From a virus: a DNA stretch of 40,643 nucleotides. Under the pieces are notes generated by a model, which worked only from the letters and a program-made list of their open reading frames with translations, was not told where the DNA came from and ran no database searches. This document shows positions 8,539-19,670 of this stretch, piece after piece. Position 1 is the first letter of the stretch. Every line of letters begins with the position of its first letter. Both the position numbers and the translations under genes were made by a program. The stretch spans positions 1 to 40,643 of the IMG/VR virus record IMGVR_UViG_3300023174_002413. One strand, written 5' to 3'.

Positions 8539-9234
8539 TTAGGTCATGCGATTATACTTGCGATCCCATTTACCGATCTGGTCTATAATCTTACGAGTGG
8601 CTATGTTGTTTCTTAAGTCGTAGTTGAACGTCTTTAAGAAATAGTGGAGAGTAGATGAATCTCGTTTTGTCTTATAACGATTTAGCAGGATGCTAATATC
8701 TACCTTTGGTCGGCGCATTTTAAAATCTAGATACACACAATGCGCATATGCTTGTATCTCATCGAACTCAGAAAGATATTCTCGTTGAGCATCTTTCTTG
8801 GCGATTCCTACTTTTTTGTATGGAACTACGTAAGTGCTCCACTCATCACCACGTCTATTGAACTGCATGAAGTGAATCAACTCATGCATCAAAGTTTGCA
8901 TTAGACGCATCTTGAATGATGCCCAAGAGGTTTGGGTAAATGGGAATGTGTTAAACTTTTCAGTATAGATATGAAGAGAACATTGACGCTTATCTGGGTC
9001 ATATTCCCCACCAATCGCTACGTAGTTTTCAGTCCACTTTGCTTTGGACTTTTCTTTCCTCCATACTATTTTAGTTCGCCATTTTTTAACATAATTAGAT
9101 AAGCCATCTTTATCATTTACATAGAGATCTAGATCTCTCCACACTTTGGCTGGAATGAGTTTTGCTCTGAATGGTTTCTCATCAAAGTTGAGAATGTCCA
9201 TCCAATCGAAAGTTGCGTTCTCTAGGAAATTCAT
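8539..9234 (-). CDS. Zinc-metallopeptidase-like protein (HExxH)
   Basis: A 231-residue soluble protein with LMHELIHFMQF, an HExxH zinc site (H117, E118, H121). It is followed about 35-40 residues later by REYLSEFDEIQAYAH, where E156 or E159 may be the third ligand. This is a zincin arrangement; the short single-domain form is reminiscent of SprT-like or M-type phage peptidases, but I do not recognise a specific family. No signal peptide or transmembrane segment is visible, so it probably acts inside the cell or virion. It follows the P-loop kinase by 20 bases, at the tail of the modification gene run. Possible roles are protein-DNA crosslink removal or processing of a phage protein; both are guesses. 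Confidence 0.65.
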   Translation of the reverse strand: MNFLENATFDWMDILNFDEKPFRAKLIPAKVWRDLDLYVNDKDGLSNYVKKWRTKIVWRKEKSKAKWTENYVAIGGEYDPDKRQCSLHIYTEKFNTFPFTQTSWASFKMRLMQTLMHELIHFMQFNRRGDEWSTYVVPYKKVGIAKKDAQREYLSEFDEIQAYAHCVYLDFKMRRPKVDISILLNRYKTKRDSSTLHYFLKTFNYDLRNNIATRKIIDQIGKWDRKYNRMT

Positions 9235-9254
9235 AGTCCCTAGAAGATGCTTGC

Positions 9255-9863
9255 TTAAATAAACTGCTTCTCAATAAATGCAAGAACCTTCCCCTGCTCC
9301 TCTAAGTTAGTGTTTACAAACTCAGTGATATATGGCATCAATTCAAAATTAGACATCAGATTACTATATTTAGTTTCTCTTCCACGTAGGAATTGCTCAG
9401 ATTGGTCGGATCCACGTTCTTTATAGCGTTGTTCTAAAATATCTTTGGGAGCCTTTAGGAATACCACTTCCAGCTGAGTATTCGGGAGACCCATACAGAA
9501 CTCTAGGAATGATTGGTTAAAAACCCGATCTCCTTCAAAAAGGATATTACAATTATGAGAAGCGATCCATTCTTGGAGGGGTGGCTGAACAGCCATGGAT
9601 AGTCGGTCAGTTCCAGCGAATACTTCACCTTCCTCATACTTGCCAAGAATGTATAGATCTCGTTCAGTATTATAGCTGGCATTTACCAACTTGGCAGGGG
9701 AAACTTCTAGCCAAGTTTTATCTTCCATAAACTTACGGAACAAAGTAGTCTTACCAGTTCCAGGAGAACCACCAACTGCGATAATCTTTCTAGTCTTCAT
9801 AGGATTCGTTACCCTTTCTACATTGATGGTGTCAACTACACCTACGTTTTCATTAAATGCCAT
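9255..9863 (-). CDS. P-loop kinase, candidate 5-hydroxymethyl-base DNA kinase
   Basis: A 202-residue P-loop kinase. Walker A is GSPGTGKT at 32-39. A Walker B-like ILFEGDR follows near 107-113, with an Arg-rich lid (QRYKER, then RGRETKY at about 145-165). The fold is that of nucleoside/polynucleotide kinases. Phage P-loop kinases that phosphorylate 5-hydroxymethyluracil within DNA have been characterised in hypermodified phages, and this one sits in a run with an amino acid:DNA transferase-like gene and a TET/JBP dioxygenase. That makes a DNA-base kinase the best reading. The alternative is a deoxynucleotide or polynucleotide kinase. It overlaps the preceding gene by 11 bases, indicating coupled translation. 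Confidence 0.75.
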   Translation of the reverse strand: MAFNENVGVVDTINVERVTNPMKTRKIIAVGGSPGTGKTTLFRKFMEDKTWLEVSPAKLVNASYNTERDLYILGKYEEGEVFAGTDRLSMAVQPPLQEWIASHNCNILFEGDRVFNQSFLEFCMGLPNTQLEVVFLKAPKDILEQRYKERGSDQSEQFLRGRETKYSNLMSNFELMPYITEFVNTNLEEQGKVLAFIEKQFI

Positions 9864-10308
9864 TTCTAATTTCCTCGATCATTTTAATCAGTTCTTCTTT
9901 ACTGAATACCCAAACTCTTCCACGGAATGAATGTGTGTCGCTATCTATTTCAGTTTTCTTAGTGAAGGTCATTTTATTGGTAACTTCTTCAGAAGCCAAC
10001 TTTGCTAGATTACGCTTAATCTCAGAAGCATAATCTATATTACTTTCTCGTAGTTTCATAAGTTCAAACTCTTGAACACGATGCTGAACAGTTATTTCAT
10101 TCAACTGATAACGATCTAAAATAACTTCAGTTGGAGTGCGGATTGGTGAGATAATACCAGAACTAGTAGTAATAGTACTTGCGCTACCCATAGTCATTGG
10201 TGATGATGAAACAGTAACATGAGGTGTTGTTGTCATTGTAATACAACCACCTGCATCTTCATACATCGCACCAGTCAATCCACCAAATTGTCCTTTAGTA
10301 ATAGCCAT
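9853..10308 (-). CDS. Unknown protein in the modification cluster
   Basis: A 151-residue protein I do not recognise. Residues 1-60 are Gly/Thr/Ser/Met-rich and low complexity (TMTTTPHVTVSSSPMTMG). Residues about 60-150 are helical and charged, ending FRGRVWVFSKEELIKMIEEIRN. The C-terminal half could bind a partner or nucleic acid. Its ATG overlaps the stop of the amino acid:DNA transferase-like gene (TAATG), and its own end overlaps the kinase gene, so it is translated between two predicted DNA-modifying enzymes and may be an accessory subunit. The Ser/Thr-rich N-terminus also resembles structural phage proteins, so a virion role is not excluded. Confidence 0.6.
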   Translation of the reverse strand: MAITKGQFGGLTGAMYEDAGGCITMTTTPHVTVSSSPMTMGSASTITTSSGIISPIRTPTEVILDRYQLNEITVQHRVQEFELMKLRESNIDYASEIKRNLAKLASEEVTNKMTFTKKTEIDSDTHSFRGRVWVFSKEELIKMIEEIRNGI

Positions 10309-11324
10309 TAAAAATTCTCCAATCCAATTAACATAGGTTCTTCATCATCAAACATCCATTCCAAGTTTTCTATTCTACCTGATTTTATAAATGCAGGAAA
10401 CTTTTCTTTATCGATTCCTCTTTTGTTATCCAAGCGCAAGTCAATAGTTTCATCTCTTGCTTGCCAAAGAACATCCCAATCAATACCATACCACCCATCA
10501 CCGTCAGCTTTGATAATCTCTTCAGCCTGACGATCTAGGTAATATCCAAGGTAACGACCATGATGCGCTCTAAATATTTTCTTGAAAGAACATAAACAGG
10601 TTTCCATTGTAAAGAAATCTATTTGCGTTTCCAAATCTGGGAATCTATCTTTTGTTTCGGTAAGAATACTGGTGGCTTCACACTCAAGAGACGCATACTC
10701 GCCTGCAGTGAGTTTTCTATCCATATCGTCATGCCTGCCGAGGGCGCATAGTAATCCATTGCGATGAGAGCGAGAGCCATCATAATCATCCAGCATGAGA
10801 CTAGTAGGGCTGATGCGAATACCAGCGGTATGCTTAAGATGCTGAAGATAAAACCAAGTGGAATAGCGACCAAACTTATGCAACCCAGACTTAACGCTTT
10901 CCCACAGGTTATCAAAGTTTGCTTCCTCATTGTCTCCATAAAAACCTTCCATTCTTTCTCGTTGTGTTCTGTTACCAATGAATTGTTGATAAGAAGCAAA
11001 CATGGCAGGTAGATGCCCTTTGTTCCACTTTGTATCAGTTTGGTAACGTAATCGTTTATAATTTGTTGCGTTCCATTGCGTAATTCTATCAACTGTTGCT
11101 AATTCATAATCAGGAAATTCATTCATCAATACCCACGCAGTTGGTAGTTGATAAGTGTTACCGTAAAGCCAAGCAAACCAAAGACGTTGTTCGTCATTAT
11201 GTTCGTATCTTTTATTGAGATAATTAGTGCACCAAACAGCTGGGTCACAGTCATCATATTTCAACGACCATGCGTACCAGCGTATGAATGCTTCTCTATT
11301 ATTTTGTGGTTGGCGGTAGTCCAA
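10308..11324 (-). CDS. Amino acid:DNA transferase-like protein (aGPT-pyrophosphorylase family)
   Basis: A 338-residue, Trp/Tyr-rich helical protein. Blocks include EQRLWFAWLYGNTYQLPTAW (45-64), NEFPD, YKRLRYQTDTKWNKGHLP (89-106), GRYSTWFYLQHLK (152-164) and DDYDGSRSHRNGL (179-191). I recognise these as the alpha-glutamyl/putrescinyl-thymine pyrophosphorylase group, also called amino acid:DNA transferases. Such enzymes replace the (pyro)phosphate on an activated hydroxymethyl base in DNA with an amine or amino acid. The start is TTG: AAAGG stands 8 bases upstream and the first in-frame ATG is 66 codons further on, inside the conserved block. It overlaps the ParB-like gene by 26 bases and abuts the unknown gene before the kinase. 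Confidence 0.75.
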   Translation of the reverse strand: MDYRQPQNNREAFIRWYAWSLKYDDCDPAVWCTNYLNKRYEHNDEQRLWFAWLYGNTYQLPTAWVLMNEFPDYELATVDRITQWNATNYKRLRYQTDTKWNKGHLPAMFASYQQFIGNRTQRERMEGFYGDNEEANFDNLWESVKSGLHKFGRYSTWFYLQHLKHTAGIRISPTSLMLDDYDGSRSHRNGLLCALGRHDDMDRKLTAGEYASLECEATSILTETKDRFPDLETQIDFFTMETCLCSFKKIFRAHHGRYLGYYLDRQAEEIIKADGDGWYGIDWDVLWQARDETIDLRLDNKRGIDKEKFPAFIKSGRIENLEWMFDDEEPMLIGLENF

Positions 11325-12615
11325 GAATATTACCTTTGTTAAATGGGTCTAAGAACATAAGAGTAATATTATTGATTCCATGCCATTTCATATTCTCTTT
11401 AAATAGTTCTAAATGTTTTTTCTGTTTTGATAACATAGTAGCTGTTGGATAGTGAATTAAAATTATACCTTTCTTCTTCTTTCCAGTAGTCATTAATGTT
11501 TGAATACCACCGAATCCAGAATTATTAATGCTATCAATTTTTTGAACTTCAATAGCACAATCTTTATGTTTATATTTTAATGCCCTACCATAATCATTAA
11601 GTTCTGTTTTGTCATATGCTATAAAGTTAATGTCAGCCTTTAACCTGTCTTCTTTACGTTGTTTTTCATATTCATCGCAGTAATAACGAATAGAGGATTC
11701 TGCATGTTGACTTATCAACTGATCAATAGCAATATCTTTAAACTCTGAAGAAGTACCTTTCAATTTAGGTAAAACTTCACCAATCATCTTAATACGTTTC
11801 TTTAAATCATCAATTGAATTGCCAGCTTGGATAAATGTTCGGTTATTCATTTGAGCACCGAAATGAACAAGATTATGTCTTTTGTTTTTAAATAATGCTC
11901 TTGGTAGAATTACTGCAGGTAATGTAACCCACTTATGTTCAATGGCTTTCTTTAGTCGGTGACTACCTTCAACTAATTCTTCTATTGCTCCTGTTTCATC
12001 GTTTGAAACGAGAACGATTGGTGTTAAATATTTTCGTGCTTCATCTGGTTTAGAAAACCAACGCTCCAAATCTTGGAGATTCTGTTTATCATAAGTGTAA
12101 TATCTTGGTTGAGTTTTGTCTAAGAGGGCTACCAATGCAACAGCAACTTCTACTGAAGGATATTGACCCATCTTAACTTTCTCAGCCAAATCTTCCATCT
12201 CACGAGCATCAGCAAGTTGATCTGAAACCATAATAGTTTTTACAAGTTTCTCAACCTTACCATCAATGATATCGGTCATCTGTTTAAACAGATCGGAGTC
12301 GCACTCATAAGAACTATCAACTCCAGCACCACCACCATTGGTGGAATTATAGAAGTTTGGATTGTGCATAGCATCATAATGACAAAGCAATTGACGCTCA
12401 TTATTACGTGCTTCTACGAGAGGGATTGGATCAGTAAGCCACTTGAATGTTAACTTACCTTGAGAACGATCTGCCAAGAATTTTGGATGCTCGCAAGAAC
12501 CAAAATAATTTTCATCTTTTGGAGTGTTCGTCAATTTATAACTACCTACGTATTTTAGAGCACCATTTCCTGGATTGCTCGGCACAAGAGTATAGTTACG
12601 TCCCATTTCTTTCAT
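11299..12615 (-). CDS. ParB/Srx-like domain protein of the modification cluster
   Basis: A 438-residue protein. Residues about 195-240 contain LTPIVLVSNDETG then EELVEGSHRLKKAIEHKWVT, the G-(S/N)-H-R motif (217-220) typical of ParB-like/sulfiredoxin-fold domains that bind CTP or ATP and sometimes act as nucleases. A long helical region follows, and residues about 330-430 resemble a separate alpha/beta domain (INFIAYDKTELNDYGRAL, KGIILIHYPTATML). ParB-like proteins recur in predicted DNA-modification operons. ATG at 12615 has GGAAC upstream and is the first gene behind a strong sigma70-type promoter. It may target modification to sites or couple it to DNA cutting; that is inference. Confidence 0.65.
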   Translation of the reverse strand: MKEMGRNYTLVPSNPGNGALKYVGSYKLTNTPKDENYFGSCEHPKFLADRSQGKLTFKWLTDPIPLVEARNNERQLLCHYDAMHNPNFYNSTNGGGAGVDSSYECDSDLFKQMTDIIDGKVEKLVKTIMVSDQLADAREMEDLAEKVKMGQYPSVEVAVALVALLDKTQPRYYTYDKQNLQDLERWFSKPDEARKYLTPIVLVSNDETGAIEELVEGSHRLKKAIEHKWVTLPAVILPRALFKNKRHNLVHFGAQMNNRTFIQAGNSIDDLKKRIKMIGEVLPKLKGTSSEFKDIAIDQLISQHAESSIRYYCDEYEKQRKEDRLKADINFIAYDKTELNDYGRALKYKHKDCAIEVQKIDSINNSGFGGIQTLMTTGKKKKGIILIHYPTATMLSKQKKHLELFKENMKWHGINNITLMFLDPFNKGNILGLPPTTK

Positions 12616-12648
12616 AATATAGTTCCATTTTCAATTGTTACAACCACT

Positions 12649-12677
12649 ATTATACCCTATTTCGCAATAAAAGTAAA
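12649..12677 (-). promoter_or_regulatory. sigma70-type promoter before the ParB-like gene
   Basis: On the minus strand TTTACT (12672-12677), a 17-base spacer and TATAAT (12649-12654). The flanks TCGCTTTACTTTTAT and GTATAATAGT are shared with three other promoters in the window. It should drive the ParB-like, transferase, kinase and peptidase genes. Confidence 0.85.
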
Positions 12678-12689
12678 GCGATATTTGAC

Positions 12690-13241
12690 TCAAAAATCGT
12701 CTATTTTGACCCTATTTTGGGTATTTGCAAGGTCGTAGAGGGTCGTACAACCCCCCTTACCCTTTCGGTTGACCGCTTTATTGATAGTCGTGTCGGAGAG
12801 GTCGTAGTCGCCCTCTAAGAAGGTATTTCCCCCTATTCTAAACACCGATAGAGAGCATCCGCTCTTTTGGGCTCCCCAAAATTTAAACCCAAGACGCTCG
12901 TAAAACCCCACTGCGGACTTCTCAGAGGATACCCTGAAGTAAGTTGCGCCATTTGCTCTGGCACGTTTTAAAGAATCCTCGCATAACAATCGAGCCGAAC
13001 CTTTACCTCTATGCTTTACAAATGTATGTAAGAGTTGTAGGTTAGCAACATGTGGTTTTGTTTTGGAAATGGTAGTGATAATTGCAGCAGTTAAATCATT
13101 ACCATCATATGCGCCAATACAATAATTCCATTGGTCTTGCATATCTGCTTTGGCAACAAATGTCTTGGCAAAGTTATCTTCTTTGTCAGTGCTTATTGCT
13201 GAAATAAAATCAGCACGTGAACACTTAGACAACTTCAACAT
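12690..13241 (-). CDS. GNAT-family N-acetyltransferase
   Basis: A 183-residue protein. The acetyl-CoA-binding motif A is clear: LLHTFVKHRGKGSARLL (HRGKGSA pyrophosphate loop near residues 77-83), then RANGATYFRVSSEKSAVGFYERLGFKFWG, the standard GNAT motif B with the Y-E-R-L-G-F signature. A C-terminal extension of about 45 residues (GDYDLSDTTINKAVNRKG) has no obvious match and is encoded by DNA noticeably richer in G/C runs than its neighbours. It overlaps the amidoligase gene by 17 bases. In this setting it may acetylate an amino group added to the modified base, or inactivate a host factor. The fold is confident; the substrate is inferred. Confidence 0.85.
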   Translation of the reverse strand: MLKLSKCSRADFISAISTDKEDNFAKTFVAKADMQDQWNYCIGAYDGNDLTAAIITTISKTKPHVANLQLLHTFVKHRGKGSARLLCEDSLKRARANGATYFRVSSEKSAVGFYERLGFKFWGAQKSGCSLSVFRIGGNTFLEGDYDLSDTTINKAVNRKGKGGCTTLYDLANTQNRVKIDDF

Positions 13242-14109
13242 AAGTCCTTACCTTCTCACCACGATCTTCTGGATGCTTAGTTTTCTCCCAACCAATAAAC
13301 TGATGGAGATCCCAAATCATTGGAGGGAATTTATAATTATTATTTGAAAGTAATTGTACTACTGGTTCATCAGTATTCAACGCAGCATCAAGAAAGTCTT
13401 GAACAAAACGGAAACAAGATTCAAGTTCCGTACGATCCATTGTACCACGGAACAATCTAAACTCTACAGTATCGATATGCTTTAGTGCGTACATATTAAT
13501 AGCGTAGCGGAATGGGCGACCCATTGATACACCATCTTTACCTGCAGCGTGCATCTTAATGAATGAATCAAAGTCAGTCGCTAGATTAATAATGTTATCA
13601 GCCATATAGTCAGGCAGAGTTCGACCACCATCAAACTTCAAATACATCTTTGCTCCTTTAGCACCTTTCATTTGATTGTGCTCAAAGTAACCATACACGT
13701 TCTCTACTGTTTCGTGTTGGTTTTCTTTAATGTATTTGGTTAGACGCTTTAGTGCATCGATATCATCACGTAGATTAGGCACACGACAGTGAATGTGTGT
13801 ATGAGCAGTAGCACCAATTGTAGGTGGAGTACCATTGTCGATGAATAGTTTTTGTAGTTCAAAATATCGATCAACTTGTTCTTGCCAAGTCTTAGTCGGT
13901 TTAGTATTGATTTCCCCACCGACTGGAGGATTTTCACCAAGTGGGTCAGCGCAGACATATTGATATGGCTCTCTTAAGTTAATAATATCTCGCTCTGAAT
14001 ATTCCCAAGTGCCGAGATGTTCTGGAATTGAAAAAGAGCGAGGAACATCACCCCACTCTATTTCCATTCCGTAAGTAAATTTATCAGTTGGATATGGTTT
14101 GAGTTTCAT
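13225..14109 (-). CDS. Amidoligase-family carboxylate-amine ligase
   Basis: A 294-residue protein with the amidoligase pattern of the glutamine-synthetase/GCS-like superfamily. It has YGMEIEWGD near 13-21, a His-rich ATHTHIH-like strand (H103, H105, H107), and TVEFRLFRGTMD (214-225) with E216 and R218. Family members join a carboxylate to an amine with ATP, and phage copies have been predicted to extend modified bases or peptides. Its ATG overlaps the glutamine amidotransferase gene by 26 bases, so the two are probably translated together. A simple model has the amidotransferase supplying ammonia or an amine and this enzyme forming an amide, on the DNA base or a small precursor. Family assignment is good; substrate unknown. 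Confidence 0.8.
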   Translation of the reverse strand: MKLKPYPTDKFTYGMEIEWGDVPRSFSIPEHLGTWEYSERDIINLREPYQYVCADPLGENPPVGGEINTKPTKTWQEQVDRYFELQKLFIDNGTPPTIGATAHTHIHCRVPNLRDDIDALKRLTKYIKENQHETVENVYGYFEHNQMKGAKGAKMYLKFDGGRTLPDYMADNIINLATDFDSFIKMHAAGKDGVSMGRPFRYAINMYALKHIDTVEFRLFRGTMDRTELESCFRFVQDFLDAALNTDEPVVQLLSNNNYKFPPMIWDLHQFIGWEKTKHPEDRGEKVRTYVEVV

Positions 14110-14788
14110 AATCTACTTTCTGTAAATCAGTTTTTGTTGTTTGAACAACTTCAACATTCATAGTCATGCGTTCATCAAATGTAAGATACGTATTCATTGG
14201 AACTTCCACTGCTGGCATTTTAATACCTGCACGTTTAGGGATATCCGCAGTAGAAGTAATTATAACGCCATTCGTTAGAGAAGTCAAGTATAATGGACGC
14301 TTACCATTACGATATGCAAGAAGTTTCTTATCAGCAGTAAGTTCGCAAACTGCCATTGATGCATCTGGATATTCTTCAAGAGGTGAATCAGAATGTAATA
14401 CTAATTCAGAATCATTCTTAGTTTCACATTTGTAGTTGAATAACTTATCCCAGTTCTCTGCTAGTTCTTGAGTAATAACTCCATTGTGAACAATAGAGTG
14501 TTCATCATTTGCTATCGGCTGGTTATACAATAGATCGCTAGTGCTATATCTACAATGACCAATAAGGTAAAGATTACCGTCATCATTAACCATCTCCTCT
14601 AAATTATCTAAATGAACAAATCTATCAGCAGGAACTGGCTCTTTGAATGTTAGAACCTTACCATTATAAATGATAGACATACCTGTTGCATGCATTCCTC
14701 GAATCTTAGACTCAAGGAATACCTTACGGATAGTTTCAAAATCCTTTGGTGTAGGATTCTGAATCAAAGCACCAATGACGCTACACAT
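14084..14788 (-). CDS. Class II glutamine amidotransferase (Ntn glutaminase)
   Basis: A 234-residue single-domain glutaminase. The sequence starts MCSVIGA, leaving Cys2 as the N-terminal nucleophile after Met removal. Further Ntn-amidotransferase signatures are RGMHATGMS, GHCRYSTSD (glutamine-carboxylate binding Arg), VHNGVI (oxyanion Asn-Gly) and KNDSELVL. It hydrolyses glutamine to release ammonia. It lacks the synthase domain found in GlmS, PurF or AsnB, so the acceptor must be on another protein, and the adjacent amidoligase is the obvious partner. ATG overlaps the dioxygenase stop (TAATG). It could alternatively act in a surface or nucleotide pathway, but the location within the modification run favours DNA. 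Confidence 0.9.
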   Translation of the reverse strand: MCSVIGALIQNPTPKDFETIRKVFLESKIRGMHATGMSIIYNGKVLTFKEPVPADRFVHLDNLEEMVNDDGNLYLIGHCRYSTSDLLYNQPIANDEHSIVHNGVITQELAENWDKLFNYKCETKNDSELVLHSDSPLEEYPDASMAVCELTADKKLLAYRNGKRPLYLTSLTNGVIITSTADIPKRAGIKMPAVEVPMNTYLTFDERMTMNVEVVQTTKTDLQKVDYETQTISN

Positions 14789-16101
14789 TAAAAGAAACCC
14801 TCAAGCGAAGAAGCATTGGCTTCTGGATGATATTTGTGTAGTTCTTCTTGACCCAATTTAGATTCAAGATAGTCATACCACTCTTGACTATCCCACATAG
14901 ATTCAGATACACCATTCCATAGTGGTTTCCAAAGTGGATGTTCTTTGTTCAGTCTACGTGATTCAACAAAGTTATATCGTGTATCTTCATACTCAAACGA
15001 TCCAAGTTCTAACATTTTCTCACGGAAATAACAAACCAATGATACACGCTCAGAACCTTCTTCACATTTGATCTCAGTATTACCATGCATGACTTCATGG
15101 TTGTTAATCAATAACAAATCTCCAGGTCTTACATTTACCGCAACACGATATTCTGGAGCAATCAAATAACCGCCAGTATATCTACCATCATTAGATAGTG
15201 TTAACAGATTGGAAAGACCTTCATTCAAATCGCCAGCATCATAGTGAGCAGCAGTGCGGAATGTTTTGTTAACAGTGATAGTTGTGAATGGTGTTCCTGG
15301 AACAAGGAATCGTGGGTCTAGTTTCTCAGCAGCTTCCATCTGATTACCATAACGCCATGGCAATAGATCTTTGAAACCTTTGGCAAGATTTTGTAGGAAT
15401 GGATATGCCATCTGAAACTTCTCAAAGTTATCACGTGTATAAGAAGTAGCACGACCATATGGAATACGTGGGTAACGATCGAACCAACCAGCAATACCAG
15501 AGTTAACTGCAGTACCGTAAGTAGTGGTACTAACCATCTTCAGAACTTCTTCAGTTGCAGTTGCTCGTTCTTGACGACTCATTGGTTTGATAGAATCCAA
15601 CCATGCTTCAAAATCAAACTTACCACGGAAACGTGAGATAACCCATACGTTATTCTTACCGCTACCGCCAGCCATTTTCTTATCTACTTCTCGTGGATAT
15701 TTCGCACGGATAGTTTCAATTACGTCTTCGTTATCCAATGAGGAGTTACGATTCTTAAGTAACTGCTCCATCATTTCTTGTTGGTAATTTGTTACCCACT
15801 CACGACCTTCTGAGGTGGCAACAATGCCATCTTTGATACCAGAAGCAAGTCCGCGATTCTCTGTGCGAATAGCTGCTTCTCTAAGTCCTGTGTATGCTGC
15901 ATCTTGTTGTTCTTTACTAAAATAATTCTTACGAAACTTCAATACGATTCGTTTTTCTGAAATGGGATCTTCACCCATTTGTGGTGGCATATAAACATCA
16001 GTATCTTCTTCAATAAGATGATCATAATGTGATTCATCAACAAACTTACCAAGAAGATGTTCACAATTGTGTTTTTGCTCAGCTACAATTACCTTAACCA
16101 T
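14788..16101 (-). CDS. TET/JBP-family DNA dioxygenase
   Basis: A 437-residue Fe(II)/2-oxoglutarate dioxygenase. The metal-binding HxD is H286-Y-D288 in FRTAAHYDAGD. The distal His is in NNHEVMHGNTE (H339, or H335), and R352 in ERVSL is the likely 2-oxoglutarate ligand. The VNKTFRTAAHYDxGD and VRPGDLLLINNHEVMHG context is that of the TET/JBP family, which hydroxylates the 5-methyl group of thymine or 5-methylcytosine in DNA. The last residues, ASSLEGFF, resemble the polymerase tail SSLEDFFG and sliding-clamp-binding peptides. It directly follows the helicase gene (9 bases), so it is co-transcribed with replication genes. No cytosine methyltransferase or dUMP hydroxymethylase is in the window, making thymine the simplest substrate. 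Confidence 0.88.
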   Translation of the reverse strand: MVKVIVAEQKHNCEHLLGKFVDESHYDHLIEEDTDVYMPPQMGEDPISEKRIVLKFRKNYFSKEQQDAAYTGLREAAIRTENRGLASGIKDGIVATSEGREWVTNYQQEMMEQLLKNRNSSLDNEDVIETIRAKYPREVDKKMAGGSGKNNVWVISRFRGKFDFEAWLDSIKPMSRQERATATEEVLKMVSTTTYGTAVNSGIAGWFDRYPRIPYGRATSYTRDNFEKFQMAYPFLQNLAKGFKDLLPWRYGNQMEAAEKLDPRFLVPGTPFTTITVNKTFRTAAHYDAGDLNEGLSNLLTLSNDGRYTGGYLIAPEYRVAVNVRPGDLLLINNHEVMHGNTEIKCEEGSERVSLVCYFREKMLELGSFEYEDTRYNFVESRRLNKEHPLWKPLWNGVSESMWDSQEWYDYLESKLGQEELHKYHPEANASSLEGFF

Positions 16102-16110
16102 ATTTTTCTC

Positions 16111-17505
16111 CTAAAACTTAAATCCACTGAATGCTTCTGCTTTTTGTCGTTTACCAAATTCGCTCTTATCAAACATAGGTACATCATCTTGAACTTGTCC
16201 AGCATCAGACAATCCTACTTGAGCAGACGCTTCAACATCATATAACTTCATCTTTGCTCTATCAACACCAATAACAAATCTCTTATAATAACTAGGATCG
16301 TTATAACGATTCTTCAATTGCTTCACAATAATTTGATTCAACTGTTCAAGTTCTTCATTTGAAACTAACGCAAACATTAAGTCAGCAGTGGCAGGTAATC
16401 CAAATGATTCAGAAGTATCTTCCAAACCTGGATCGCTATTTGTAAATCCACTTCGAGTAGTTTGTGTGGCTGAAACAATCGGAACATTATATTCTACTGC
16501 CAAACCACGCAACTCTTCAGCGATGGACTTAATATATGTATAAGAGTTAATACTTCCACCTTGCTTCATTCGCTGACTTGCGCAAATATTAAGATAGTCA
16601 ATGAAGATAATATCAGGAAGAAACTCACGCTTCAACTTCAACTCTTCAAGCAATGCTCTAAAGTGACCAGCGTGTGCGCCAGCAGTTGGATATTCCTTGA
16701 CGATTAATTTACCTTGAGTTTTACTAGAGATCTTCTTAATACGATTATCAAAGATATCTTTATCAATGACTTTCAATTCATCCATGGTAAGGTTCAACAA
16801 ATTCGCATCGATACGTTCAGCGATACGTTCTTCAGCCATTTCCATAGTAATGTAAAGCACGTTCTTACCTTGAGTCAATACTCCAGCTGCAACGTGACAC
16901 ATAAACAAAGACTTACCAACACCAGTACCAGCCAGAACAATGTTAAGAGTTTTCTTGGACAAACCACCTTTGGTGATTTTGTTGAACATGTCTAGGTCGA
17001 ATGGAACCTTCTCTTCAATGCGGTGATAATAGTCATAACGAGCATCGCTGTCTTCGATGTAATCGTGACCAACGTGATTATCGAAAGAGATGGCAAGAGC
17101 ATCAGAAAGGATAGAAGGTATGGAATCTTTGGTGTTAACTTTATCTCCGCCATCAATGATTCGGATCGAGTGTAAAATTGCATTATAGACTGCCTTATCT
17201 TTACAGAACTTCTCTGTTTGTTCCAACATCCATGACTCATTAACTTCCTCATGAGTCATCGTATCTACATAATTATTAATCTCAGCAAGTTCTTTGTCGT
17301 TGATATCAGTTCGGTTTCCTACCTCAATTGATAGGATCTCTTTGGTTAATGGTTTGTTATACTTCGTAAAGAATTCCACAATAATCTTAGAAAGGATTGC
17401 TTCTTTTCTTTCAGAGAAATAATCAGTTCTAATAAAGGGAATTACTTTACGACAATACTGTTCATCATATACAAGATTACTTAAAATCTTTGTTTCAATT
17501 CTCAT
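16111..17505 (-). CDS. 41: Replicative DNA helicase, gp41-type
   Basis: A 464-residue DnaB-family hexameric helicase equivalent to T4 gp41. Walker A (AGTGVGKSLF), the Walker B region (IIFIDYLNI), SATQTTRSGF and the C-terminal Arg-finger region (GVDRAKMKLYD) are in the expected order. The first 150 residues form the helical N-terminal domain used for hexamer and primase contacts. The start is taken at ATG 17505; an upstream TTG is possible but is not needed. It overlaps the preceding small gene by 11 bases. It unwinds the fork on the lagging-strand template with a primase that is not in this window. Confidence 0.95.
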   Translation of the reverse strand: MRIETKILSNLVYDEQYCRKVIPFIRTDYFSERKEAILSKIIVEFFTKYNKPLTKEILSIEVGNRTDINDKELAEINNYVDTMTHEEVNESWMLEQTEKFCKDKAVYNAILHSIRIIDGGDKVNTKDSIPSILSDALAISFDNHVGHDYIEDSDARYDYYHRIEEKVPFDLDMFNKITKGGLSKKTLNIVLAGTGVGKSLFMCHVAAGVLTQGKNVLYITMEMAEERIAERIDANLLNLTMDELKVIDKDIFDNRIKKISSKTQGKLIVKEYPTAGAHAGHFRALLEELKLKREFLPDIIFIDYLNICASQRMKQGGSINSYTYIKSIAEELRGLAVEYNVPIVSATQTTRSGFTNSDPGLEDTSESFGLPATADLMFALVSNEELEQLNQIIVKQLKNRYNDPSYYKRFVIGVDRAKMKLYDVEASAQVGLSDAGQVQDDVPMFDKSEFGKRQKAEAFSGFKF

Positions 17506-17797
17506 CAATTCCGCCAGTGTAAGTAATATTATTTTTCTGTAGTTGATCCATCATAATAAACTGAAGTAAGTCGCCGATGTAGTGTTCAAACTCTTCAGCG
17601 ACATACTCTTGTTCATTTTCTAGAACCTCATACTCAAAGCAAAGTTTGCAAGTATCATCTTCTTGTTCCTCAAACCTTACCTTACCGTAAGTATAAATTA
17701 TACCTGAATATGGTCCAGAAGTCAACTTTATTGCGTCAACTCCTGTTTTGCGATTCTCAACTACAACGAATGGAGGTTTCGCAAGATGTTCACTCAT
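17495..17797 (-). CDS. Small conserved protein between uvsX and 41
   Basis: A 100-residue acidic protein (DAIKLTSGPYSGIIYTYGKVRFEE), with a predicted beta-rich first half and a helical, Glu-rich second half (EEFEHYIGDLLQFIMMDQL). It overlaps uvsX by 8 bases and the helicase gene by 11, so it is tightly locked into the recombination/replication operon. T4 encodes gp40, a head-assembly factor, at the equivalent place, but no similarity to gp40 is apparent. A small accessory of UvsX or the helicase is possible. Function unknown. Confidence 0.75.
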   Translation of the reverse strand: MSEHLAKPPFVVVENRKTGVDAIKLTSGPYSGIIYTYGKVRFEEQEDDTCKLCFEYEVLENEQEYVAEEFEHYIGDLLQFIMMDQLQKNNITYTGGIDEN

Positions 17798-19121: not shown

Positions 19122-19670
19122 CTATGGATTATTTTTCGAATGTGGAACATCAAAGACAAATGTAATCCTTGTGCAATCGCCAGTGTTCTCAGTTCCGTGC
19201 TTTAACTTATTGTTGAACCAAAGTAATGTTCCAGGTTCAACATCTACATACTCATCACCTACAAAATATCTATATCTTCCTAGAATGGATAAATGGTAAC
19301 GATCTCGTGTAAGATAGTAAGTCCCCTCATCAATGTGTAAACCAACATGACCACCAACTGGAAGCGAAAGGAATCCACATCGACTAAACTTCTTGAAATT
19401 CCGCTTCATAAAACCTACAACTTCAGTATGATGTTTTATAGCAGGGGTTGGAATACAAATCTCACTATCACCAACAAAGTCTTCTGCTTTTTCTACACCA
19501 CCCATTACTAATTGTAATGCATCTACTGGTAAATCAGCAAACCCTCTATCAATCAAAGAACCTGCGTTCTCTATACTTTTTTGTGAACCCCAATCAGTTG
19601 GGTGTTCCTTCAATTGTTTCACAATCTTTGAAACATTGATTCCAGTTTTAATGATGCGAATATTAGCCAA
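19122..19670 (-). CDS. Aspartyl/asparaginyl beta-hydroxylase-like dioxygenase
   Basis: A 182-residue double-stranded beta-helix protein. HVGLHIDEG gives the HxD iron site, LKHGTENTGDCTRITFVFDV gives the distal His and the 2-oxoglutarate Arg, and RYRYFVGDEY lies between, as in aspartyl/asparaginyl beta-hydroxylases. Translation very probably starts at TTG 19670: a full GGAGG lies 7 bases upstream and the next in-frame ATG is about 55 codons later. It overlaps the end of the polymerase gene by 8 bases. Substrate unknown. Small 2-oxoglutarate oxygenases are common in aquatic T4-like phages; protein or DNA hydroxylation are both possible, and it could help the modification pathway downstream. Confidence 0.85.
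   Translation of the reverse strand: MANIRIIKTGINVSKIVKQLKEHPTDWGSQKSIENAGSLIDRGFADLPVDALQLVMGGVEKAEDFVGDSEICIPTPAIKHHTEVVGFMKRNFKKFSRCGFLSLPVGGHVGLHIDEGTYYLTRDRYHLSILGRYRYFVGDEYVDVEPGTLLWFNNKLKHGTENTGDCTRITFVFDVPHSKNNP

Follow-up and report, generated by a model that had tools for sequence, protein, structure and literature searches.

A TET/JBP dioxygenase gene cassette in a T4-like phage fragment and a putative post-replicative pathway of DNA base hypermodification

Introduction

What would a phage build on its DNA with a TET/JBP dioxygenase, an amino acid:DNA transferase (ADDT) and a P-loop kinase encoded in one run of genes, and where would the hydroxymethyl base required by the latter two come from? 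The question is raised by an eight-gene minus-strand run (9255-16101) in a 40,643-bp virus record, IMG/VR IMGVR_UViG_3300023174_002413, a fragment that was analysed over its full length and is called the window below; coordinates are window positions unless another locus is named. From the TET/JBP dioxygenase (TET) to the kinase, the run passes through a glutaminase, an amidoligase, a GNAT acyltransferase, a ParB-like protein, ADDT and a 151-aa protein, and it sits between a helicase gene and a SprT-like gene (Table 1). The window phage infects bacteria and is T4-like: its replication genes are of the T4 type (UvsX, DnaB-type helicase, family B polymerase, sliding clamp and clamp loader), and some of its proteins match recombination endonuclease subunits of phage DLP6. 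We put the probability at roughly two in three that the cassette encodes enzymes for hypermodifying a DNA base after replication, with TET as the supplier of the hydroxymethyl base and thymine as its likeliest substrate.

Sources of the hydroxymethyl base

The window TET scored 90.9 bits against the Pfam Tet_JBP profile (cut-off 34.9), and a profile of its family matched human TET2 (E 2.1e-4). A sequence-only reading of the window had pointed to HxD at 286/288, H339 and R352; H286, D288, H339 and R352, the catalytic HxD...H...R ligands of iron and 2-oxoglutarate, proved invariant in 17 aligned TETs. The enzyme would take the first step, oxidation of a 5-methylpyrimidine that is probably thymine, in DNA. 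Further phage TET matches were Nonlabens, HTVC112P, S-CBWM1 and Melnitz. The label 'SNF2 DNA repair protein', attached to TET relatives in Cr30, DLP6 and S-CBWM1, was rejected for this protein, as the window homologue had no SNF2 family at E <= 1; relatives so labelled are found under KU682439.2, NC_025422.1 and NC_048106.1, and the name was presumably carried over from JBP2.

The distribution of ThyA-family enzymes separated ADDT phages with TET from those without it. Such an enzyme was present in all nine TET-less phages of a sample of ten ADDT phages, Vi01 included, and absent from the tenth, Mycobacterium phage Magpie, which has a TET-like gene. In a set of 21 records with TET, made up of 18 from IMG/VR (the window and 17 others) and the isolates Caulobacter phage Cr30, DLP6 and C48C1, the family was found once, in Cr30 (E 3.9e-113), and in none of the six long (148-174 kb) cassette-type IMG/VR records. 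For TET-bearing ADDT phages (these six contigs, Cr30 and Magpie) versus TET-less ones the count was therefore 1/8 versus 9/9 (Fisher p = 4e-4, on hand-chosen rows of which several are kin). ThyX occurred in 6 of 12 TET-bearing records searched. The kinases differed as well: HMUD2 ('5-hmdU DNA kinase 2'), the family matched by phage ViI, was found in 8/9 TET-less versus 0/9 TET-bearing records, the latter including the glycosyltransferase-type record G003, with the window record outside this search.

Taken together, the TET/ThyA complementarity and the kinase difference argue for two ways to feed ADDT, by a ThyA-type enzyme at the nucleotide level or by TET on DNA. Phages ViI, M6 and phiW-14 are thought to incorporate 5-hydroxymethyldeoxyuridine (5hmdU) during replication (PMC6449724), and according to a pelagiphage paper the other clade of this transferase family is, in M6-like phages, always accompanied by a homologue of thymidylate synthase (PMC9599517). 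That the window phage would make its hydroxymethyl base by oxidation on DNA and not at the nucleotide level, as the sequence-only reading had proposed, is well supported by comparison, both by the absence of ThyA from the six long cassette records and by the exchange of ADDT for a glycosyltransferase behind TET described below.

In Magpie, which is filed as Coopervirus, the TET-like gene (26-28 bits, cut-off 34.9) lies between gene 1, annotated as ParB-like in the record and without a Pfam match, and ADDT, which is followed by a Ploopntkinase3 gene (E 9.3e-73). The protein gp2 of Mycobacterium phage Cooper has been used as a TET/JBP member (PMC12730594).

As to the target base, a C5-cytosine methyltransferase (PF00145) was found in none of the 21 TET-bearing records, ten of which are at least 147 kb long (three of these being isolates deposited complete) and eleven under 130 kb; for the window's own phage this result is provisional, the window being a fragment. 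With no such enzyme found, thymine is left as the one 5-methyl base certain to be present in these phages, and hence as the likeliest TET substrate.

Exchange of modules behind TET

The region between TET and the SprT-like gene was compared across 84 TET intervals (83 loci and the window), of which 44 reach SprT and are complete; the 40 open ones, isolates L002-L004 included, were left uncounted. ADDT with the kinase occupied 25/44 complete intervals and a glycosyltransferase 19/44, and no interval contained both. The ADDT type comprised 18 intervals with glutaminase, amidoligase and GNAT, four without GNAT, two without amidoligase and one (L053) without glutaminase; L053 carries two weak ADDT-like proteins, one of 343 aa without a Pfam match at E <= 0.5 and a 317-aa neighbour under the ADDT cut-off. 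The glycosyltransferase type comprised 16 intervals with Glycos_transf_1 proteins (one cluster, with Pfam run on two members, L029 and L057, the second from an open interval), two with TAGT, and one, L061, assigned by eye. The family of the last (in L061 and L067) is glycosyltransferase-like by eye, and its L061 member had no Pfam match at E <= 0.5. TAGT, the TET-associated glycosyltransferase, is reported in T6-like phages and thought to add a second glucose (PMC13390438); here it follows the close TET relatives L083 and L084. Beside the Glycos_transf_1-type gene in L025 (11783-12127) and L028 (11750-12094) stand 114-aa kinase-like open reading frames (ORFs) without a P-loop pattern, likely remnants of an ADDT-type module.

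Dereplication at 97% TET identity left 34 intervals, 21 of the ADDT and 13 of the glycosyltransferase type. The type changed five times on the 34-row TET tree, with well-supported branches forcing four changes and bootstrap trees giving 4-5; a quick 82-row tree, in which the isolate branches were long and 13 rows had no label, also gave five. Beyond the interval itself, no ADDT was found in the glycosyltransferase-type record G003 (165,633 bp), and the six long cassette-type records hold one each. Different decorators at one place behind one TET are what would be expected if TET makes a common hydroxymethyl intermediate.

In L028 (on a record of 165,633 bp) and L029-L046, a Glycos_transf_1-type protein follows TET wherever the locus is readable whole, and the L028 record contained no C5-methyltransferase, ThyA or ADDT; judged by gene content, this type is a candidate phage counterpart of base J. 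Two isolates provide further observations. Phage C48C1 (L004, 13353-15382) has TET, then a 344-aa protein without a Pfam match, then UDP-galactopyranose mutase (GLF, E 5.6e-52), and no ADDT, a gene order that suggests galactofuranose-type decoration. In Cr30 (L003, 12001-18474), inositol-1-phosphate synthase lies near TET, ADDT and a TAGT-like protein, and an unusual decoration is possible there.

Linkage across recruited loci

IMG/VR loci were recruited three times, keeping the closest relatives in each case: the best 80 of 305 for TET, of 406 for the amidoligase and of at least 572 for ADDT. The three sets share contigs, and one contig may bear several locus numbers (e.g. L008, L110 and L181); linkage was counted within one recruitment, with redundant contigs kept. 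Among amidoligase-recruited loci with enough flanking sequence, glutaminase was present in 74/74, GNAT in 73/73, TET in 52/53, ADDT in 37/37 and the kinase in 26/26, and two glycosyltransferase queries matched in 0/80. The gene set was the same on recruitment by ADDT (contigs overlapping), with the kinase in 51/51 loci, TET in 29/29, glutaminase in 39/39 and amidoligase in 19/41, and again with the glycosyltransferase queries in 0/80. The other 22 of the 41 have a GNAT-cluster protein of 212-226 aa between glutaminase and ADDT (GNAT by Pfam for two representatives). GNAT was absent from L053 and from four complete intervals, which carry a low-molecular-weight-phosphatase-like protein (family F9; Pfam for one). 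The stable set is thus TET, glutaminase, ADDT and kinase, the amidoligase being optional and GNAT nearly constant.

Between ADDT and the 151-aa family, L009 (15514-17010) and L010 carry a radical SAM protein whose B12-binding match is weak and under the cut-off; this may represent a further variant of the pathway. In locus L163, to which we return below, cassette genes adjoin an ORF resembling a nucleotide-sugar epimerase by eye.

Proteins of the cassette

The ORFs agree in span and strand with those of the sequence-only reading, and its family assignments (TET/JBP, glutaminase, amidoligase, GNAT, ParB-like, ADDT-like and P-loop kinase) were borne out (Table 1). In profile searches, TET, glutaminase, GNAT, ADDT and kinase each exceeded the Pfam cut-off; the amidoligase of the window fell short, with relatives and predicted fold in support, and the ParB-like protein had no match, with the predicted fold in support. 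Most genes had been said to overlap, and six of the seven junctions from TET to kinase are indeed overlaps of 1 to 26 bases, GNAT and the ParB-like gene being separated by a 74-base gap.

Table 1 Features of the cassette and its surroundings in the window, with the evidence for each assignment
Feature	Position	Strand	Length (aa)	Evidence
2-oxoglutarate oxygenase, Asp/Arg-hydroxylase family, upstream	19122..19670
Helicase, cassette border	16111..17508
TET/JBP 2-oxoglutarate/Fe(II) dioxygenase	14788..16101	-	437	PF12851 E 6.5e-26
Class-II glutaminase (N-terminal Cys type)	14084..14788	-	234	GATase_6 E 2.9e-9
GS/GCS-fold amidoligase, optional member	13225..14109	-	294	PF12224 E 0.017 (under cut-off); AlphaFold2 fold
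GNAT acyltransferase	12690..13241	-	183	PF13673 (Acetyltransf_10) E 1.6e-11
ParB/Srx-like protein with GIY-YIG-like N-terminal part, optional member	11299..12615	-	438	AlphaFold2 model; conserved residues
ADDT (aGPT-Pplase2 family)	10308..11324	-	338	PF18724 E 1.5e-22
151-aa protein, overlaps ADDT and kinase	9853..10308	-	151	DUF1690 E 1.7e-4 (under cut-off)
P-loop kinase (Ploopntkinase3)	9255..9863	-	202	PF18751 E 1.5e-7 (over cut-off)
SprT-like protein, cassette border	8539..9234	-		SprT-like Pfam E 0.094 (under cut-off)

ADDT scored 80.9 bits against PF18724 (cut-off 26.2) and is related to the ADDT of phage ViI; of 11 records searched, seven IMG/VR records (the window included) and Cr30 had one match each. 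For the kinase, the score against PF18751 was 31.6 bits (cut-off 27), and HMUD2 (PF18747) was not among the matches listed (25 of 30 families, E <= 1). The P-loop pattern is found in 27/31 kinase-family ORFs; it is missing from the Cr30 member and from three ORFs 113-114 aa long.

In the glutaminase family, MC in the first 25 residues, NQP and HNG occur in 44/44 members and GHxR[YFW]ST in 42/44, which we take to be the catalytic motifs; a phmmer search with the glutaminase against the PDB gave no match at E <= 0.01. The window amidoligase reached 15.4 bits against Amidoligase_2 (PF12224, cut-off 22), and 11 of 29 aligned members matched that profile at E <= 0.01 (best 4.5e-5). Its AlphaFold2 model (pLDDT 79, pTM 0.83) matches GS, GCS, YbdK and GmaS chains with Z of 9.0 to 10.3 among the matches listed (Foldseek best E 2.6e-4), and in this model the protein has the carboxylate-amine ligase (GS/GCS) fold.

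Although the window ParB-like protein has no Pfam match of its own, two homologues match ParB_N under the cut-off, and residues 151-258 of its AlphaFold2 model give Z of 10.2 to ParB and 8.6 to sulfiredoxin (whole-model pTM 0.54). In the first 90 residues of 20 homologues, Y8, Y22 and G24 are nearly invariant and E73 and N90 invariant; by eye, and from motif only, this part appears GIY-YIG nuclease-like, and GIY-YIG nucleases were not among the matches listed for the model. The protein is divergent and optional, and could be a homing-type or modification-linked nuclease.

The 151-aa protein belongs to a family (F5) with 20 members in the recruited loci. The SprT-like gene adjoins loci of the glycosyltransferase type too, and its product is probably not part of the pathway. 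The Asp/Arg-hydroxylase-family oxygenase gene upstream of the cassette is found in 37/84 loci.

Discussion

The protein families, their linkage and the module exchange are observations, as is the finding that the records searched showed no second recognised source of the hydroxymethyl group; one gene run unites a DNA-base kinase (Ploopntkinase3), ADDT and, in TET, a putative hydroxymethyl source. Substrate, order, donor, product and purpose we infer as follows. TET would hydroxylate a pyrimidine of finished DNA at its methyl group, which for thymine, the likeliest target, would yield 5-hydroxymethyluracil by JBP-like chemistry; the Ploopntkinase3 enzyme is predicted to phosphorylate the hydroxymethyl group of the base in DNA; and ADDT would swap the phosphate for an amino nucleophile, either an amino acid or ammonia. 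The glutaminase would give ammonia to ADDT or to the amidoligase, which where present would form a side-chain amide, and GNAT would acylate an amine; such amide extension and acylation of the base side chain are plausible. In the relatives, all steps after TET would be replaced by a glycosyltransferase that works on what TET makes. Since loci without the amidoligase keep the glutaminase, we lean towards ammonia being used by ADDT or close to its step, the amidoligase and GNAT then providing variable caps. For the kinase step there is an analogy in 5hmdU DNA kinase, which phosphorylates 5hmdU in phage SP8 DNA in vitro (PMC7653180). The purpose is probably escape from host nucleases, given the restriction resistance of ViI, M6 and phiW-14 DNA (PMC6449724). 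A wider proposal, somewhat short of even odds, is that a T4-like phage family uses TET-made 5-hydroxymethyluracil from thymine as an exchangeable platform, with an amide- or acyl-capped amino side chain in some members and a phage counterpart of base J in sisters. We know of no example of an amide- or acyl-capped amino side chain in any DNA.

Several points speak against this pathway or loosen its support. Its chemistry, for this phage and its kin, is a prediction from genes. The ten ADDT phages were hand-picked from 376 matching records and are not independent, four of the nine TET-less ones being Ackermannviridae by record, and the TET-less phage Montesquieu has Ploopntkinase3, so that kinase type tracks the presence of TET imperfectly. 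Cr30 has a strong ThyA besides TET and ADDT; the TAGT-like gene next to its ADDT is under the cut-off (E 8.5e-4), and the candidate for its kinase falls under that of Ploopntkinase3. DLP6 has TET and no ADDT, with a peptide deformylase after TET and no decorator identified; a restriction test of DLP6 with 18 enzymes is described in print (PMC5349666) and was given no weight here. Amidoligase and GNAT are each absent from some loci, and the idea that these two and the glutaminase are all obligatory was rejected for that reason. The case for thymine is one from absence: 5-methylcytosine (5mC) could be the work of a host enzyme, and 18 of the 21 TET-bearing records are environmental contigs of uncertain completeness. 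The near-invariant D291 of TET aligns with the HRDLHN stretch of human TET2, and no residue rule is known by which thymine and 5mC could be separated. Phages with a C5-methyltransferase, TET and glycosyltransferases do make glycosylated cytosine (Burke 2021, via PMC12730594).

That last precedent would favour a pathway in which TET oxidises 5mC laid down by a methyltransferase of the host, or by one of the phage that escaped detection, and the kinase and ADDT, or a glycosyltransferase, build on 5-hydroxymethylcytosine, as would TAGT behind the close TET relatives L083 and L084. T6-like phages are not known to carry TET. TAGT is reported in these phages too (PMC13390438) and was discarded as proof of a cytosine route, which is also made unlikely by the lack of PF00145 in all 21 records, the ten long ones with their three complete-deposited isolates included, and by phage ViI, which has a related ADDT and carries modified thymidine (PMC6449724). 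It is also conceivable that TET, kinase and ADDT modify the base and that glutaminase, amidoligase and GNAT form a separate small-molecule or protein-modifying module. In this direction points L163 (5319-9119), a further difficulty for our proposal, where these three genes stand with the ParB-like gene and part of ADDT and no TET beside them; GS-like amidoligases with partner enzymes in other settings are reportedly covered by Iyer 2009. We regard such a separation as doubtful, because the glutaminase is found in 24/25 ADDT versus 0/19 glycosyltransferase intervals among the complete ones, and the three genes overlap TET and each other. Finally, some enzyme not of the ThyA family might produce the hydroxymethyl base as a nucleotide, leaving TET to carry the oxidation of the side chain further or to strip methyl marks of the host. 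In favour of this, the IMG/VR records are possibly incomplete, the window record being 40.6 kb long; even so, the complementarity of TET and ThyA-family enzymes and the constancy of TET beside several downstream module types render this very improbable, and oxidation of thymine by TET on DNA, followed by amino-type decoration, is the reading we prefer.

Parts of the cassette resemble known systems. The sequence-only reading knew of no description of this exact combination, which was right in part. Its core was in print: Rhodococcus phage Tonitrus has parB-like, tet-like, aGPT-Pplase2 (ADDT) and 5-hmU kinase genes together, described as a putative system of thymidine hypermodification (PMC11955845). 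No TET system with amidoligase and glutaminase, or with GNAT in addition, was found by the one search aimed at it or in the wider literature covered, which was partial and had the main papers outside it. Iyer 2013 is said to have predicted TET-started pathways and may cover more of this cassette. A jumbo phage survey that mentions JBP, and names amidoligase in the title of a reference, reports no TET/JBP in jumbo phages (PMC7824862).

The actinophage systems (Tonitrus, and Coopervirus phages such as Magpie) share with the window the conjunction of ParB-like, TET-like, ADDT and P-loop kinase genes; Magpie differs in its divergent TET-like gene, in the lack of glutaminase, amidoligase and GNAT among genes 1-4, which were scanned, and in its 71-kb genome of another type. 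With ViI, M6 and phiW-14 the window shares the ADDT family (ViI) and a DNA-base kinase, and in both an amino-type side chain on a hydroxymethyl pyrimidine is expected (PMC6449724). However, in those phages 5hmdU is believed to arise at the nucleotide level, and TET-less ADDT phages, Vi01 among them, have ThyA (9/9) and HMUD2 (8/9), whereas the window type has TET and Ploopntkinase3. Cytosine hypermodification by phage TETs (Burke 2021, via PMC12730594) likewise starts with the action of TET on a 5-methylpyrimidine of the DNA and continues with a decorator, and two relatives here have TAGT; it differs in having a C5-methyltransferase, found in 0/21 records here, and the window decorator is ADDT with a kinase. 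Kinetoplastid base J (JBP1/2 with a glucosyltransferase) resembles our proposal in that thymine is first hydroxylated in DNA and then decorated, with relatives of the glycosyltransferase type coming nearest to it, whereas the decorating step of the window would be of the amino type.

New here would be the glutaminase/GNAT/amidoligase extension, the putative TET source of the hydroxymethyl base in T4-like ADDT phages, and the clear exchange of the downstream module with glycosyltransferases. Cultured phages with related genes exist, in Cr30, the Coopervirus phages and DLP6. If the proposal is true, oxidation of replicated DNA would give phages a second way to 5-hydroxymethyluracil, and with it a common platform for interchangeable decorations, and new nucleosides with amide- or acyl-capped amino side chains are predicted. 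The swap between ADDT and glycosyltransferases would point to a modular system of DNA disguise.

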